This document shows positions 3,948 through 43,474 of a stretch of DNA of 43,557 nt, piece after piece. A model generated the notes under the pieces. That model searched no databases and was not told the origin of the DNA. It saw nothing but the letters and a program-made list of their open reading frames with translations. The stretch comes from a virus, in the IMG/VR virus record IMGVR_UViG_3300010373_000017, positions 1-43,557 of that record. The stretch is one strand, 5' to 3'. The translations under genes were made by a program, and so were the position numbers. The first letter of the stretch is position 1. Each line of letters begins with the position of its first letter.

Positions 3948-4943
3948 ATGTCAGTATTTGCAGCAGGTTTAAATTTCCTGTCATGTCTCACTAATGCCAA
4001 AAACGTAGGTCTCGGGTCTTGCCCGATAGACATGAAACGTATGATAGGCGTTATCGGAATACCGAAGGGCAAAACCTTTGGCTTATCTGATATAGGTGTA
4101 AACGGTACGACATGGCAGACAACAATAACTGGTCTTACTTCATCTGATAGTCCTGTAACAAGATGTTACTCATTAGGGCGCTTCGTTGGAGTAAAGAAAA
4201 ACAGCCAGTCAGCACAGGAATATACAATACCATATATCGGCAAGGTAACATTGCAGCCAGCAGTACCTATTATAGGTTTCCAATGGCTCAACGGCGGGAT
4301 ATGCGATTATTACAACTTCTTACAGTTTCACGGGACGCAAGGTCAGTATGACTGGATTTTTGTGGATGCCAATCAGGTATGTTGGGGGCGCAGGCTATAT
4401 GCAAGCGATGGGGTAACTCAATTATTCGGTGGCTTTACCATGTCAGATGTCGCTGTCGATACAGTGGATATACCAGACCAGTCTAACCCAGCATTGATGT
4501 ATATCAACTTCGCCATGGATAACGCAGATCAGTTCAGACAATATCTGTCTTTTATTCCTTGCAATTTTGATGTATTAGCGCAAACGCCAGGTTTCCAGAC
4601 CGCAACATTAACTGGAGCATCGCAAGGTGGCGGCACGCACGGTGTTTACAACATGGCAGCAACATTCGGTTGTACCAAGCAGGACTTGTATTCATACTAT
4701 GCCACAGCATTAGCAGCCACCTCAGCATGGGTTGTTTTGAATGCAACTACTGGTCTTGCAATACCCGTAACAGGTGTTACACAAAATCCGGATGGATGGC
4801 AATTAACACTAAATACAGGATCTGCCAACTATCCTACAGTAGGACAGGGATTAACTACAAATCTTGCAGCACCGTCAGTACTTACAGGGCTTGGCGTTAC
4901 AGGTATTGAATCAGCAGGTACAGTAACATTATTAGCAACATAG
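3948..4943 (+). CDS. Probable major tail (tube) protein
   Basis: A 331-aa, mostly beta protein with low charge and many Gly, Thr and Ala residues. Its place between the tail terminator candidate and the chaperone/tape-measure genes, its A-rich translation start, and a strong hairpin terminator right after its stop all fit the abundant tail tube protein. The last about 110 residues after a glycine-rich linker (GASQGGGTHG, near 224-233) look like an added surface domain, perhaps Ig-like, as found on some tube proteins. No enzyme motif is present. A decorated tube protein is my best reading; a minor tail protein remains possible. Confidence 0.6.
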   Translation: MSVFAAGLNFLSCLTNAKNVGLGSCPIDMKRMIGVIGIPKGKTFGLSDIGVNGTTWQTTITGLTSSDSPVTRCYSLGRFVGVKKNSQSAQEYTIPYIGKVTLQPAVPIIGFQWLNGGICDYYNFLQFHGTQGQYDWIFVDANQVCWGRRLYASDGVTQLFGGFTMSDVAVDTVDIPDQSNPALMYINFAMDNADQFRQYLSFIPCNFDVLAQTPGFQTATLTGASQGGGTHGVYNMAATFGCTKQDLYSYYATALAATSAWVVLNATTGLAIPVTGVTQNPDGWQLTLNTGSANYPTVGQGLTTNLAAPSVLTGLGVTGIESAGTVTLLAT

Positions 4944-4955
4944 TTTTTTAATCAC

Positions 4956-4989
4956 AGGGGCACATTATGCAGGTGGTGTGTCCCTTTTT
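4956..4989 (+). terminator. Rho-independent terminator after major tail gene
   Basis: An 8-bp stem (GGGGCACA at 957-964 with TGTGTCCC at 977-984, one G-U pair) is followed by TTTTTAATATTTTTT. It sits 13 bases after the stop of the tail tube gene. Partial termination here would give more tube protein than downstream chaperones and tape measure. The stem overlaps the in-frame ATG at 4967, arguing that the next gene starts further on. Confidence 0.75.
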
Positions 4990-5011
4990 AATATTTTTTA
5001 TGATAATAAAA

Positions 5012-33310: not shown

Positions 33311-33499
33311 TCATGATGCTGTTTTTAGTAGTTCTATCAATTTTTCTCGCATAGATTCATACTTAAGATGCTTGGCATCAGCAGCATAAGCAGCAGCAGC
33401 ATCAGCAGCAACATAAGCAGCAGCATAAGCAGCAGCATCAGCAGCAACAGCATCAGCAGCAGCAACAGCAGCAGCATATATTTTTCTCAGCTCTGCCAA
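33311..33499 (-). pseudogene. Alanine-rich C-terminal part of a split gene
   Basis: A 62-codon frame that begins with TTG and encodes an Ala-rich helix (VAAADAVAADAAAYAAAYVA and similar) made of GCA/GCT repeats at 33377-33475, followed by MREKLIELLKTAS. In phages, this kind of Ala-rich helix normally forms the C-terminus of the protein encoded just upstream. Here it lies in the -1 frame, overlapping by 13 bases. No ATG is available. I read it as the separated end of the upstream gene, caused by mutation, sequencing error or programmed shifting. Confidence 0.6.
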
Positions 33500-36018: not shown

Positions 36019-37200
36019 CTAATTATAAATACTTTTCAATAACTCATCCATTCCGCGCTTATCTTTTCCGAGGTATATTTCAGTAGTTGCTACTTTATCA
36101 TGTCCCATTAAATGGCTGGTCATATAGATATTCTTACCTATTTCCTGTGCGTGGTTGGAAAATGCCCTGCGCATGTCGTGAAACGACAGGTTTTTAGAAA
36201 TATGGCATTCTAACAGGACCGTTTTAAACGTTTTGTTTATTTGTGCTTGCACCTTTGACAACTCCCTGTGCAGCATTTCAGGGTTAAGAGAAGGATTAAT
36301 CAGACCGCTTATCGTTTGCGTGTCGTTTTTTAGTTCTGTTATTATAGTCTGCAGTCTGTGAGAAATGGGGATATCCATTATTTCACTTGTTGTATGCAAT
36401 GTTTTAAATGGGTGCCATCGCAAACGCTTTATCTTATCTTCGGTATATATCGCTGATTTCTTTATTAGCAATACATCTTTAAACCTCGCACCAACCGCAT
36501 AATAACTAAATAATGCTGTGAGTTTTGCAATACGTTTCCAATAACTGTCTGGCTGATAGTAAAATAAAGCGTCGATCTCCTTAAATGTCATTAATTGCTT
36601 TTGCGGCGGCTTAAATGAGCCTTTTTTTGCAGTAGCCATAGGATTGTAAGGGTAAAGGTTATCGGCAACTGCCTTGTTTATTATAGCATTCACAAAGCGC
36701 AGTTTTGACACAATAGTATTTGCAGCGTACTTCTTTTCTAATCGTTTTCTAAAAGTGGCAACCCATTGGTTATTTAGAGAACCAATTTTTATACCCGGGT
36801 ACATCTGCTCTATCATGGCAATATTGGACTTATATCTATTTGCTGTACCTATTTGCCCATTATCGCGAAATGCACTCTCATAATGCTCTGCTATGCCTTT
36901 AAATGTATCGCCAAGCATAATAGCATTGGAAACAGCCTTAACGGTCGGTTTCGATGTTTTATCAAGACTGCTGTAAAATGCTCGCGCTTCATTTAGTTTC
37001 TGCTCAATGACCTCATTCCATTCAACGCTATTGGGATGGGAGGGTTTTATACGCTTTTTTATATTGTCCCATTGGGTAGCCTTTACGCTATATCCGGTAG
37101 ATTTATAGCTCACCCTGCGATCAATGATAATAACAAGACAAACAGGTTGCTCACCACGTTTGTTTACATACTTTCGGAGATCGAAGTAGAAGGATGCCAT
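36019..37200 (-). CDS. int: Tyrosine integrase
   Basis: A 393-aa tyrosine recombinase of the kind common in Bacteroidota prophages. Residues 1-100 form an arm-binding domain (FYFDLRKYVNKRGEQPVCLV), 100-195 the core-binding SAM-like domain, and the rest the catalytic domain. Catalytic residues are R239 (GARFKD), K266, H341-x-x-R344 (SFHDMRRAF), H367 (LMGHDKVAT) and Y376 (TEIYLG). All six are present, so the enzyme is probably active. It carries out integration and, with a helper, excision. It follows the small basic gene by two bases. Confidence 0.92.
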   Translation of the reverse strand: MASFYFDLRKYVNKRGEQPVCLVIIIDRRVSYKSTGYSVKATQWDNIKKRIKPSHPNSVEWNEVIEQKLNEARAFYSSLDKTSKPTVKAVSNAIMLGDTFKGIAEHYESAFRDNGQIGTANRYKSNIAMIEQMYPGIKIGSLNNQWVATFRKRLEKKYAANTIVSKLRFVNAIINKAVADNLYPYNPMATAKKGSFKPPQKQLMTFKEIDALFYYQPDSYWKRIAKLTALFSYYAVGARFKDVLLIKKSAIYTEDKIKRLRWHPFKTLHTTSEIMDIPISHRLQTIITELKNDTQTISGLINPSLNPEMLHRELSKVQAQINKTFKTVLLECHISKNLSFHDMRRAFSNHAQEIGKNIYMTSHLMGHDKVATTEIYLGKDKRGMDELLKSIYN

Positions 37201-38686: not shown

Positions 38687-39169
38687 ATGCCAGCACCAAA
38701 AGGAAATAAGTTCGGATATAATGGAGGTAGGCCAAATGCATTCACATCCCCCAAAGATTTAACCAAAGAAATAGAAGAGTATTTTAATTGGTGTGATACC
38801 AATCCCTTACAAATATGGCATACCCAGTTAGATAAGAGTAGCGGTCAACCGGTACAAATAACACAGCAACGCCCATACACAATTGAGGGCTTATCGCTTT
38901 GGTTAAATGTGGATTCAAGAACATTACTGAACTACCAACGGGCTGAGGGGTACGAAGATTTTTTTCCAATAATTATACATGCGAAACAGCGAATTGCTAA
39001 CCAGAGGATTGAATTAGCTACTGCTGGCGTATTTAAAGAAGGTTTTACAAAGTTTTTATTAATTAATAACAGTGCATTGGATTATCAGGATAAGATTGTT
39101 CAACAAACTACTATAGATATTAATTCTACTCCCGACTGGCTAACCAAACCAATAGAAGATACTGAATAG
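38687..39169 (+). CDS. Terminase small subunit
   Basis: A 160-aa protein with the N-terminus MPAPKGNKFGYNGGRP, typical of small terminases of Bacteroidota phages, a helix-turn-helix (YTIEGLSLWLNVDSRTLLNY, about 64-83) for recognition of the packaging site, and a helical C-terminal region for oligomerisation and contact with the large subunit. It abuts the large subunit gene without a gap (TAG then ATG). It selects phage DNA for packaging. Confidence 0.82.
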   Translation: MPAPKGNKFGYNGGRPNAFTSPKDLTKEIEEYFNWCDTNPLQIWHTQLDKSSGQPVQITQQRPYTIEGLSLWLNVDSRTLLNYQRAEGYEDFFPIIIHAKQRIANQRIELATAGVFKEGFTKFLLINNSALDYQDKIVQQTTIDINSTPDWLTKPIEDTE

Positions 39170-40438
39170 ATGCACGATCTTACTACAAAATATGTAGGCA
39201 AATCAACAAAATATAATCCTAACCTTGTCTTTTTAGAGAGCGAGTTTAAAAATTATCGAATATTTGCAATGCCAGGAGGAACACGCTCTGGCAAAACATA
39301 CTCAGTTATTCAGTTCCTTTGGCGCAACCTCTATAAATATCATGGGATACAATACAGTATAGTCAGGCAGACATTGCCAGCGCTAAAGGCTACAGTCATG
39401 CGCGATTTTGAGGAAATAGGAAGAGAAGCTAAATTATATAATGGCAATCTACACAATCTTACCGATAAAGAATACAGATACAACAATAATCTTGTTGATT
39501 ATTTTAGCGGCGACGATAATGAGAAGATAAGAGGCCGCAAACGGCACGTCTTGTACATGAACGAAGGGCCGGAATTACCATGGGATGTTGTACAGCAGCT
39601 ATTATTTAGGACCTCTGACAAGGTAATACTCGATTATAATCCGTCTTATCCTGAATCATGGGTATATGACAAAATACTTACCAGAAGTGATTGCGCTTAC
39701 ATTACTACTACATATAGAGATAATCCGTTTCTTACTGCCGGGCAACTCTCTGAAATTGAATGGCTACAACTCAATGATCCGGAAGGGTATAAAGTATATG
39801 GCTTAGGCCAACGTGGTGAACTGCGTGGGCAAATCTATACAAACTGGAAACCTATAAAATCAATGCCTGTTGATTACCCGATCATTACCGTAATTGATTT
39901 TGGGTTTAGTAATGATCCTACAGCTATTAGTCAATTCAGCACTCATAATAGAGCTATTTATGGGTGTGAAAAACTATATAAGAAGGAACAAAACAATCTA
40001 CAGATTGCCTGTCATTTATTCTTTATTGGTTGTGATAGTAGTAGTATGATAATTGCAGATAGTGCAGAGCCCAAAAGTATTGTTGAATTGCGTATCGGTT
40101 GGGATTTGACATCGGAAGCCGTTAAACTACTTGCTTTCCAATGTGGTTATGAATGTAGCGAAGAAACTATAGTTAAGTTGCAAAAGCAATTAAAAAAAGG
40201 ATTTACAGTCTTGGCAGCAAGCAAAGGACAAGACAGTATAGACGCTGGCATACAGAAGCTAAAACAATATGAAGTATTTATCACAGAAGATAGTCATAAT
40301 GCATGGATGGAATACCGTAAATATCGTTGGGCAGAAGATAAAAAGACTGGTAAACTATTAAACGTTCCGGTTGATGAGAGTAATCACTTTATGGACACAT
40401 TACGTTATTTCTGTTTATGCGCCGGTAGATTATTTTAA
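39170..40438 (+). CDS. Terminase large subunit (packaging motor)
   Basis: A 422-aa protein with ATPase and nuclease domains. Walker A is GGTRSGKT (36-43), Walker B VLYMNEGPE (127-135) with catalytic Glu132, and the coupling motif LDYNP (154-158). The RNase H-like nuclease domain is shown by VIDFGFSNDPT (D243), IIADSAEPKS (D297) and HFMDTLRYF (D409). It drives DNA into the prohead and cuts the concatemer. Its length fits PBSX/T4-like siphophage terminases. Located directly after the small subunit. Confidence 0.92.
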   Translation: MHDLTTKYVGKSTKYNPNLVFLESEFKNYRIFAMPGGTRSGKTYSVIQFLWRNLYKYHGIQYSIVRQTLPALKATVMRDFEEIGREAKLYNGNLHNLTDKEYRYNNNLVDYFSGDDNEKIRGRKRHVLYMNEGPELPWDVVQQLLFRTSDKVILDYNPSYPESWVYDKILTRSDCAYITTTYRDNPFLTAGQLSEIEWLQLNDPEGYKVYGLGQRGELRGQIYTNWKPIKSMPVDYPIITVIDFGFSNDPTAISQFSTHNRAIYGCEKLYKKEQNNLQIACHLFFIGCDSSSMIIADSAEPKSIVELRIGWDLTSEAVKLLAFQCGYECSEETIVKLQKQLKKGFTVLAASKGQDSIDAGIQKLKQYEVFITEDSHNAWMEYRKYRWAEDKKTGKLLNVPVDESNHFMDTLRYFCLCAGRLF

Positions 40439-40771: not shown

Positions 40772-40975
40772 ATGTTACATACACAACTACAAAACAAGGA
40801 ACTGAAAAAGGCAATTATTAAGCAAAAAGTAGGCGCTATAAACGAGGGCAACAGCGCAAGGTGTGGTGGTACAAGAAATGGAAAGGCTTGTAATCATAAG
40901 TTGGGAGAATTTGAAATGGCATCAGGGACTATTAAGTGCATTAGATGTGGTGCGATAAACGTTGTTAAGAGGTAG
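40772..40975 (+). CDS. Com-like zinc-ribbon protein
   Basis: A 67-aa protein with four cysteines (C31, C40, C56, C59), ending IKCIRCGAINVVKR. The last part is the pattern of Com-type zinc ribbons, small RNA-binding proteins such as phage Mu Com, which activates translation of a methylase. A role in mRNA or DNA binding is likely; the target is unknown. A longer spacing between the first cysteines differs from Mu Com. Confidence 0.55.
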   Translation: MLHTQLQNKELKKAIIKQKVGAINEGNSARCGGTRNGKACNHKLGEFEMASGTIKCIRCGAINVVKR

Positions 40976-41027: not shown

Positions 41028-41234
41028 ATGAATTACCATCTCTGGGACAGAGGGAAAAAGAAGTTAGATAAAGACGGTTTTTGGTTCAGACAGGACAGGT
41101 GTGTACGTTGTGGCTGTGTGCGTGAAATGATGCATAAGATGTATAATGGCTCATTAACAGAAATGGTCTATGTTTATAAATATTTTGGATTTACCTTTAT
41201 CAGCGAAAACCGACCTAACTGCAAAAGGATATGA
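41028..41234 (+). CDS. Small cysteine-rich protein
   Basis: A 68-aa protein with CVRCGC (C25, C28, C30) and C65, a possible zinc site, and a Trp/Tyr-rich sequence (MNYHLWDRGKKKLDKDGFWF). It overlaps the lipoprotein gene by ATGA. No family recognised. Confidence 0.5.
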   Translation: MNYHLWDRGKKKLDKDGFWFRQDRCVRCGCVREMMHKMYNGSLTEMVYVYKYFGFTFISENRPNCKRI

Positions 41235-41665
41235 AAAAACTACTACCACTACTTATCTTATTCACCGCATGCCATAAGACAGACATACCAACTCCAACCG
41301 GTACAACAAAAGTTGACACTATTCACCATTTCATACGTAATTGGGATAATATATCTATTTGGAATGAGTTCGATAAAGGAGACACAATACATTGCTTTAC
41401 CTCACATGATACGAGCTTTGTTGTTTACAAAGGCCAAAAGTTATTTGTATGGACGTTTCAGAAAAACGATAGCGCAGAGGTTATCTATAACTGTTTTATC
41501 ACGCCACAATGTTTTGATACCACAATGATTTACTCCAGGTGCCAGGTAAGCGGGTCGAGATACTATGATACTTCAGCAGGATGGCTAAATGAATATCAAA
41601 CTATATGGCTTGCTGATAAATCGCATTTCGACACAACCGGAGAAGGCATTTACTCAAATTTTTAA
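41231..41665 (+). CDS. Lipoprotein
   Basis: A 144-aa protein starting MKKLLPLLILFTACHK, a lipoprotein signal with lipobox FTAC and Cys14. The mature protein is beta-rich with scattered Cys residues. It is encoded between terminase and portal, a strange place for an envelope protein. Possible roles are superinfection exclusion, as known for phage-encoded lipoproteins such as that of T5, or envelope modification during infection. It is followed by an AT-rich region with a promoter. Confidence 0.6.
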   Translation: MKKLLPLLILFTACHKTDIPTPTGTTKVDTIHHFIRNWDNISIWNEFDKGDTIHCFTSHDTSFVVYKGQKLFVWTFQKNDSAEVIYNCFITPQCFDTTMIYSRCQVSGSRYYDTSAGWLNEYQTIWLADKSHFDTTGEGIYSNF

Positions 41666-41672
41666 ATATTTT

Positions 41673-41702
41673 TTTGTTTATTAAATAAATTATATAATTT
41701 TA
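41673..41702 (+). promoter_or_regulatory. Candidate promoter upstream of portal operon
   Basis: TTTG (41673-41676) and TAATTTTA (41695-41702), 18 bases apart, resemble the Bacteroidota pattern with one mismatch in the -7 element. Transcription would start near 41708 and run through two hairpin terminators. Confidence 0.4.
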
Positions 41703-41786
41703 CTTAGTAGTAAGTAGAATTTACCAATTAGTAAGTAAATAATTAAGTTTTAGTAACATTTAAGTTTTAGTTAGAGCGACTTCGAT

Positions 41787-41819
41787 CGCCAATTGTCTTA
41801 GGATAGTTGGCGGTTTTTT
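41787..41819 (+). terminator. Hairpin terminator 1 in portal leader
   Basis: CGCCAATTGTC (787-797) pairs with GATAGTTGGCG (802-812) with two G-U pairs around TTAG, followed by GTTTTTT. It has all features of a Rho-independent terminator. Confidence 0.8.
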
Positions 41820-41846
41820 ATAACGTGGGGTTAATAGAGTGTTTTC

Positions 41847-41888
41847 AAAGCACCATATGCGGTAACGCGTGTGGTGCTTTTTCTTTTT
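41847..41888 (+). terminator. Hairpin terminator 2 with GNRA loop in portal leader
   Basis: AAAGCACCATATGCG (847-861) pairs with CGCGTGTGGTGCTTT (866-880), 15 pairs with two G-U, around the tetraloop GTAA, then TTCTTTTT. It lies directly upstream of the 78-aa gene and the portal. Confidence 0.85.
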
Positions 41889-41892
41889 AAAT

Positions 41893-42129
41893 ATGATCTG
41901 GAAAGCTAAAGAAGTACACAACCTGAAGAATGGCGATACAAAAACAGTATCACATTTTGCTTGGCTTCCGAAACGTGTGGGAAATAATATTGTATGGCTT
42001 GGTGAATATGAGTATTTGTACGCATGGATTATAACAACAAGGCTTATACTTATTGACGATAAAACTGTTGAGTTCAAATATGGTGATTGGGAAAAAATAT
42101 CAGAACGGGTTATAAATGAATCTGACTGA
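41893..42129 (+). CDS. Small protein upstream of portal
   Basis: A 78-aa protein starting at ATG 41893 (an upstream GTG at 41869 lies within the terminator stem). The sequence is beta-rich with tryptophans (HFAWLPKRVGNNIVWLGEYE). It overlaps the portal gene by 14 bases, so the two are coupled. No family recognised; a portal-assembly or head role is possible. Confidence 0.5.
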   Translation: MIWKAKEVHNLKNGDTKTVSHFAWLPKRVGNNIVWLGEYEYLYAWIITTRLILIDDKTVEFKYGDWEKISERVINESD

Positions 42130-43474
42130 TTGGGGTAACGCGCAGCAGCTTGATGTAAGCTCTATGGTCCCACAAGGGATTTCGTTCTTCAGCTACAACA
42201 ATGAAGTGCAGTGGGAACGTGTCGCAACAGCAATGGACTATAAGCGCATATTTGAACTATGTTCTCCGTTAGCTGCGATAGTTTCTAAAAAAGCTGCTGC
42301 ATTCGCGAATGGTGAGCTGCAATTTATAAAATCAACAACAGGCGGTGAGATTCGTGGTTTGGATAAACAATGGAAAAAGCTCTTTGACAGGCCAAATTTA
42401 ATGCAGACAGGTACAGAGTTTTTAACACAGTTGTACATATTTATGGCGATGAGGGGGTATTGTTATGGATACCCTATTTATGCAGAAGGATTTGCAGATA
42501 TACCATCATCTATATGGTTATTGCCTCCATGGTATGTATCTGTGTCACCTATAAATAATCCATTTTTTCAGTTTACAAACGGTTTGGTTGAAAGGAAAGT
42601 AATATTCAATTGGAATGGAGAAGCAACTGAGATACCAGAAAATGAATTAATATTGTTCAAAGACCCTGGATCTACGCTCATTAATCAATATACATGGCTT
42701 CCTGAAAGCAGGATAATGTCTTTACAGCGTCCAATCTCAACATTGATAGCAGCAATAGAAAGCAGGAATGTACTCGTAACAAGACGTGGTGCTTTAGGTT
42801 TATTATCAAACGATACAGGAAAGGGAGATGTCAACTATGTGCCACTAAAGCCAGATGAGAAAGAAGAACTGCAACGTGATTATAGACAATACGGACTTAC
42901 CAATAACCAATGGCAGTTGCTTATAACAAATGCAAATCTGAAGTATCAGCAAATGGCTATGAACGTAAAAGAATTAGGTCTGTTTGAAGAACATGAGCGC
43001 GATATAATGGATATATGTGATGTGTTTGGTTATCCTTACGAATTACTTTCCAATACAAAGGGACAGACTTACGCAAATAAAAATGAGGCAGGTAAAAAAT
43101 TATATCAGGACACTATAATACCTGAATCAAAGGTAATAACAGAACAATTTGAAATTGGTTTAAATCTATCTGATGTGAATATAGAATTAGAATTAGTATA
43201 TGATGATGTTGAATCACTACAGGAATCTATGAGAGATACTGGACAGGGAAGGCTTGCTATGAATAATGCTCTTGCTGTGCAATGGGAGAATAATCTTATA
43301 ACACTTGATGATTGGCGTGAACAGATAGGTGATGAAAGATTAGGGACAGACCCTAATATGTTTTATAAGTATGAGTTTGATCAATGGATGCAGACAAATG
43401 GTTATGCACCACAAATAGAATTGCAGATACCGGGAAACGAACAGCCACAAAAACAACCCAATGCAGCAGCATAG
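42116..43474 (+). CDS. Portal protein (HK97-type)
   Basis: A 452-aa portal protein forming the dodecameric ring for DNA passage at one capsid vertex. Family features are ELCSPLAAIVSKKAAAFANG (about 44-63), IFMAMRGYCYGYPIYAEGF, LLPPWYVSV and the downstream GFEEHERDIMDICDVFGYPY-like region with KGQTYANKNEAGK. The C-terminus is disordered and Gln/Pro-rich (IELQIPGNEQPQKQPNAAA). The last 40 bases fall in the right terminal repeat, so the stop is repeated at 38-40. On the circle it overlaps the protease gene by 14 bases. Confidence 0.9.
   Translation: MNLTDWGNAQQLDVSSMVPQGISFFSYNNEVQWERVATAMDYKRIFELCSPLAAIVSKKAAAFANGELQFIKSTTGGEIRGLDKQWKKLFDRPNLMQTGTEFLTQLYIFMAMRGYCYGYPIYAEGFADIPSSIWLLPPWYVSVSPINNPFFQFTNGLVERKVIFNWNGEATEIPENELILFKDPGSTLINQYTWLPESRIMSLQRPISTLIAAIESRNVLVTRRGALGLLSNDTGKGDVNYVPLKPDEKEELQRDYRQYGLTNNQWQLLITNANLKYQQMAMNVKELGLFEEHERDIMDICDVFGYPYELLSNTKGQTYANKNEAGKKLYQDTIIPESKVITEQFEIGLNLSDVNIELELVYDDVESLQESMRDTGQGRLAMNNALAVQWENNLITLDDWREQIGDERLGTDPNMFYKYEFDQWMQTNGYAPQIELQIPGNEQPQKQPNAAA

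Follow-up and report, generated by a model that had tools for sequence, protein, structure and literature searches.

The leader in front of the portal operon in the viral DNA analysed here (the window, 43,557 nucleotides, positions 1 to 43,557 of IMG/VR record IMGVR_UViG_3300010373_000017) may be a gate of the Com type, in which a small zinc-ribbon protein, here the 67-aa product of a gene located upstream, would let expression pass two tandem terminator hairpins. We give this reading of the window about an even chance, while the link between Com genes and such leaders across phages as a class is much firmer. To our knowledge, the only role described so far for the Com family is the activation of a DNA-modification gene in phage Mu, and we know of little exploration of late-gene control in Bacteroidota phages.

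A 123-bp terminal repeat in the window points to a circular viral contig of ~43.4 kb. The window is a temperate tailed phage, and its relatives infect Bacteroidota. The terminase genes are followed, in this order, by the Com-like gene, a 68-aa gene, a lipoprotein-like gene, the leader, a 78-aa gene and the portal gene (Table 1). The 68-aa gene and its counterpart in the relative L002 (positions 1356-1562) are identical at all but 1 of 207 bases, with neighbouring genes 78-83% identical; this near-identity would reflect recent exchange or very strong constraint. Elsewhere in the window, tandem repeats rich in GCA/GCT are found at 33375-33478, where they encode a small alanine-rich ORF on the minus strand.

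Table 1. Features of the window discussed in the text.
Feature	Position	Strand	Remarks
Integrase gene	36019-37200
Small and large terminase genes	38687-40438
Com-like zinc-ribbon gene, 67 aa	40772-40975	+	proposed factor; assigned by PHROG 6417, Pfam and custom HMM
68-aa gene	41028-41234		between Com-like and lipoprotein-like genes
Lipoprotein-like gene	ends at 41665		directly 5' of leader
Bacteroidota-type promoter	41673-41702	+	TTTG at 41673-41676, 18 nt, TAATTTTA at 41695-41702; predicted start ~41707
Two 18-nt repeats	41699-41737 (41699-41716, 41720-41737)		possible operator; kept in L002
Alternative hairpin 1	41773-41791	+	AGA-GCGA-CUUCGA-UCGC-CA; would share bases with T1 5' arm
Terminator hairpin T1	41784-41815	+	U-tract to ~41820
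Alternative hairpin 2	41836-41855	+	degenerate element AGAGUGUUUUCAAAGCACCA; would share bases with T2 5' arm
Terminator hairpin T2	41847-41880	+	U-tract to 41888
78-aa gene	41893-42129	+	first gene of proposed gated operon; PHROG 11031
Portal protein gene	42116-43474	+

Promoter, repeats and tandem hairpins of the leader

Two strong hairpins with T runs lie in tandem before the 78-aa/portal operon, as the preliminary description had stated. T1 has 14 pairs and a TTAG loop and is followed by TTTTAT; T2 has 15 pairs, the GTAA tetraloop already reported for it, and then TTCTTTTT. With their flanks they reach -19.7 and -25.0 kcal/mol, respectively, and for each of them none of 200 shuffled sequences was equally stable. 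Both hairpins have the stable stem and U-tract, above chance, of intrinsic terminators. When hairpins with a good T-run were ranked across the whole window, T2 was the strongest terminator-like hairpin, and both T1 and T2 were among the most stable. T2 ends 12 nt 5' of the ATG of the 78-aa gene and its T-run ends four bases before that ATG; T1 is located ~80 nt from the start codon, which lies outside both hairpins. A third strong terminator-like hairpin with a U-tract (4956-4985 on the plus strand, -18.4 kcal/mol) is present within the late operon; it separates the gene at 3948-4943 from the one that follows and ends ~15 nt before the ATG at 5001.

The promoter-like sequence that had been placed before the hairpins is present, and its type is Bacteroidota-like rather than sigma-70-like. 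The block TAATTTTA matches TAnnTTTG at 7/8 positions, and the promoter is close to the Bacteroidota consensus TTTG/TANNTTTG (PMC6847099; a further source of this consensus is PMC9723704). A further promoter, located between the terminators or 3' of them, was rejected because no TAnnTTTG occurs in 41703-42120. Leader-peptide attenuation was rejected because there is neither an ATG nor a GTG from the promoter to T1, and no ORF was found in the leader.

The two 18-nt repeats, each with a TTAC-N6-GTAA dyad, are spaced 21 bp and lie over and just 3' of the predicted start. Two kinds of upstream repeats had been suggested as binding sites of a factor. The AGTAAGTA repeats belong to the 18-nt repeats and are kept in L002; the 18-nt repeats resemble an operator in DNA rather than a signal in RNA. 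The TTAAGTTTTAGT repeats were rejected for this role, as their stretch is deleted in L002.

L002 is the only close relative of the window, with a portal that is 93% identical. Identity is 94.7% in the promoter block, 87.5% in T1 and 94.1% in T2, compared to 78-83% in most flanking genes, so that both hairpins, whose conservation the preliminary description proposed to look for, are kept. The ATG of the 78-aa gene is kept as well, but not the leader body from the repeats to T1.

Com genes, terminators and a shared leader element at portal loci

Using a portal alignment we collected 187 loci (viral contigs and a few prophages), of which 116 were nonredundant. Of 114 nonredundant loci, 31 have a strong hairpin that ends 4-25 nt 5' of the portal start, compared to 18 of 399 starts of other genes at these loci. 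A U-tract (at least 5 T of 8) follows 26/34 leader hairpins, versus 19/399 at the corresponding place 5' of other genes. Some leaders carry textbook-like terminators directly 5' of the start codon (L101, L176, L111, L205 and L150). U-tracts are poor in five related leaders (L117, L130, L138, L154 and L157).

We then built an HMM from nine small zinc-ribbon genes located upstream of portal genes, which yielded ~34 loci. The stop codon of the Com-like gene is mostly located 73-104 nt before the portal gene. Nearly all of these portal-adjacent proteins match PHROG 6417 (translational regulator), several match PHROG 13819 (gpCom), and 5 of the 10 relatives tested pass the cut-off of the Pfam family Zn_ribbon_Com (PF10122, 22.9 bits), with scores of up to 38 bits. 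The leader hairpin is present in 23/29 loci with Com and in 6/72 without it (Fisher p=4e-12; p-values here overstate independence because related loci share ancestry). In the apparent exceptions among loci with Com that we inspected (L105, L195, L199, L209 and L163) a hairpin does follow Com, before a small pre-portal gene or a later start codon. An own promoter precedes the portal gene in 1/32 loci with Com, in 42/80 loci without it, and 37/397 other genes have one. The hairpin and promoter comparisons lend good support to the earlier suggestion that structural genes in this position need conditional passage of hairpins. A search for Com in Bacteroidota host genomes yielded zinc ribbons, none of them near a portal gene.

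Two loci have a tRNA-Met (CAT) gene between the zinc-ribbon gene and the portal terminator leader (L031, 5585-5658; L039, 5752-5824). In the Polaribacter phages Freya and Danklef (L008, 3581-3693; L009, 1215-1327) a terminator is followed by the promoter TATATTTG, an element-like hairpin and the portal gene; the order of terminator and promoter is the reverse of that in the window.

The leaders share a short element, which we defined by eye as AGA, a 4-bp stem, the loop C-NNN-GA and CA, and which forms the 5' foot of the leader hairpin. It was defined from the first set of loci, and further loci were fetched afterwards. In the first 45 loci the element occurs nine times upstream of the portal gene and once elsewhere. 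The 116 nonredundant loci contain 11 copies near the portal gene (58 kb), compared to 0.22 expected, three in 789 kb elsewhere and none on the opposite strand. The later-fetched loci contain the element with new stem sequences (ACUC/GGGU and AUCC/GGAU). A gap-free alignment of 13 copies has two-sided changes at all four stem pairs, and shifted structures collapse in it; 97.7% of its cells pair, a figure that is biased because pairing was itself a condition for including most of the copies. The positions of the element and the variety of its stems are not subject to this bias. In L072, L008 and L016 the element is present without any terminator. A DNA direct repeat with a 10-bp period was rejected as a description of the element, since the repeats fail in the window, L031 and L008, where the stem pairing holds.

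The alternative hairpins of the window are weak when taken alone (-3.4 to -3.9 kcal/mol), and their energies are not unusual relative to shuffled upstream sequence. Across all leaders the same test gave a mean z of -1, with 7/34 at the 5% level and 1.7 expected. Because the energy test is weak overall, the case for the element rests on motif, position and covariation.

In-vitro selection for the Com zinc finger produced NGAGNNCC(N)2-3GAGNNCCNN, with the motif GAGNNCC(N)2-3GAGNNCC; Com was bound to CC(N)2-3GAG in a hairpin loop, where GA and the first loop C were protected, and Mu Com acts on translation (PMC6483171). In its sequence the leader element is this published selection motif, a match that was recognised after the element had been defined. 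The published motif occurs six times near the portal gene versus 0.07 expected, and the core CC(N)2-3GAG is found at the 5' foot of the hairpin in 16/32 loci with Com versus 0/169 other terminators in the same loci. L101 and L130 are among the leaders with the exact core, and L024 has a tandem GCGC form.

The exact core is absent from the window, where the T1 element reads AC-UUC-GAU and the T2 element has none. The six-base loop C...GA, which is the geometry of the Com target, is present in the T1 element (CUUCGA) and not in the T2 element. Element 2 of the window and element 1 of L002 deviate further from the core than element 1 of the window. The 67-aa protein matches PHROG 6417 with an E-value of 2.4e-4 and scores 21 bits against our HMM of Com-like portal neighbours; its Pfam Zn_ribbon_Com score is 12.8 bits, and that of the L002 protein 16.1 bits, both below the cut-off.

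Additionally, we scanned all viral contigs with AGAGYGCCNNAGAGYGCCA and obtained 53 loci, including some within genes that are chance matches. Com is encoded in 17/49 contigs searched versus 0/31 contigs with a shuffled motif (p=1e-4), and 13/54 sites have a terminator-like hairpin that begins with the second GAG, versus 0/31 for the shuffled motif. An alternative control (0/50 contigs) was set aside in favour of the shuffled motif because it was biased, its contigs having been chosen as lacking Com near the portal gene. Genes located right after the motif encode terminase, portal, head protease, scaffold, major tail and DNA methyltransferase. At L288, L292, L295 and L318, in Com-encoding contigs, the motif stands directly 5' of DNA methyltransferase genes (N6_N4, C5 and D12), which would suggest mom-like use with other modification enzymes. 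One 51-kb contig, IMGVR_UViG_3300031650_000002 (L291, L307 and L320), has three Com motifs with a terminator hairpin from each second GAG, possibly a phage-wide regulon; no Com gene was found in this contig at threshold.

A proposed Com-type gate and its alternatives

In the gate that we propose, RNA polymerase would start at ~41707, although it could also arrive from the terminase operon, and in the default state T1 and T2 would halt it and would also leave little room around the start of the 78-aa gene. A short alternative hairpin immediately 5' of each terminator would use bases of the terminator 5' arm; with bases common to the Com site and the terminator, both cannot form together. A Com-type zinc ribbon, most likely the product of 40772-40975, would bind the alternative hairpin in nascent RNA and keep the large hairpin from forming, which would allow polymerase (and ribosomes) to pass, and the 78-aa, portal, head and tail genes would be expressed only after the factor had built up. 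In the model for the class, the terminase operon would supply Com, and the synthesis of head and tail proteins would follow the accumulation of Com. We infer that the Com-like protein of the window is the factor, that its binding opens the gate and that termination, beyond translation alone, is affected. The reading stands at about one half because the window has no exact core, a protein below the cut-off, a degenerate T2 element, its own promoter in the leader and two extra genes that separate the leader from the Com-like gene; in the last two features it is unlike most leaders with Com.

The alternative that survives best, unlikely as it is, takes T1 and T2 as leaky terminators that end the terminase/lipoprotein transcript and weaken the leader promoter, with a fixed readthrough setting the dose of portal and head proteins and no factor involved. 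The window elements without the exact core and the additional terminator-like hairpin in the late operon agree with this. However, readthrough past two consecutive stems of 14-15 pairs should be low, and in relatives the hairpins are tightly linked with Com genes and Com sites.

It is quite improbable that the leader is a translational gate as in Mu mom, where a hairpin by the start codon would block ribosome loading until opened by Com and the U-tracts would matter little. The action of Mu Com on translation is consistent with such a gate, as are the short distance from T2 to the ATG, the elements without a terminator and the poor U-tracts of the L117 group, and start-proximal structure lowers translation in Flavobacterium (PMC6847099). 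Yet the start codon is contained in neither hairpin, T1 is distant from it, and U-tracts follow most leader hairpins. The frequency of U-tracts favours termination as the controlled step; given the three leaders without a terminator and the five with poor U-tracts, the control may, as in Mu, lie in translation, either in place of termination or alongside it. The window resembles Mu com-mom in the small CCCC zinc ribbon encoded just upstream, and relatives also have a GAGNNCC / CC(N)2-3GAG hairpin by a larger inhibitory hairpin before the start codon, of which the window keeps the geometry only. In contrast to Mu, the target here is the portal/head operon and not a DNA-modification gene, and the large hairpin is a U-tract terminator, present in the window as a tandem pair with its own promoter. 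The inhibitory hairpin of Mu contains the start codon, whereas T2 does not.

Processive antitermination of the lambda Q or HK022 put type, in which a polymerase modified by a factor or by the leader RNA would pass later terminators, is very doubtful. The order of promoter, short leader, terminators and late operon is that of lambda PR'-tR', and the terminator at 4956-4985 would also need to be passed. However, no Q-, N- or LoaP-like gene was found when 30 window proteins were scanned with PHROGs, nor was there a Q-like Pfam match among the window proteins scanned, and a search against Rfam, which may hold no put family, gave no match near threshold. The leader body is not conserved in L002, most relatives with Com have no promoter in the leader, and the element here lies in RNA at the terminator foot and not between promoter hexamers as for Q. 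The mechanisms named in the preliminary description, a repeat-binding factor and a put-like leader, find no backing in these searches or in the fate of TTAAGTTTTAGT. HK022 put is also a leader RNA structure before terminators, but it acts processively and without a phage protein; here each terminator has an element of its own, and the elements go together with a protein family. Readthrough local to the leader and encoded by it would therefore be the best reading, and not one of the put or Q type. In antiterminators of the RAT type (BglG/LicT/SacY) an RNA hairpin that is stabilised by a protein has bases in common with the terminator 5' arm, as would the alternative hairpin proposed here. The differences are a zinc ribbon in place of a CAT/PRD protein, a much shorter stem and a viral late operon; PHROG and Pfam scans of the window proteins revealed no CAT/PRD regulator gene.

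Finally, a small-RNA gene, with RNAs of ~115 and ~180 nt running from the promoter to T1 and T2 and the portal operon started elsewhere, is hardly credible: a promoter and terminators alone would suffice for it, as in lambda 6S RNA, and the leader has no ORF, but the body of such an RNA is not conserved in L002, there is no TAnnTTTG between T1 and the portal gene, and relatives keep the hairpins without the promoter.

A possible wider role of Com zinc ribbons

It is conceivable, with somewhat less than an even chance, that Com zinc ribbons are widespread phage RNA-binding antitermination factors at intrinsic terminators. Their targets would be late structural operons (portal, terminase, scaffold and protease) and DNA-methyltransferase genes, and a short RNA hairpin held by Com would exclude the terminator. 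The mom gene would then be one translational special case and the window a tandem, sequence-diverged version. We found no paper linking Com to portal genes or terminators in a literature search that most subscription papers lay outside. If true, this reading would turn Com, known from one anti-restriction gene of Mu, into a general timing switch for capsid genes. It provides a concrete RNA target that is testable in vitro, and it offers possible functions for many small zinc-ribbon genes that adjoin portal genes and have no annotation.
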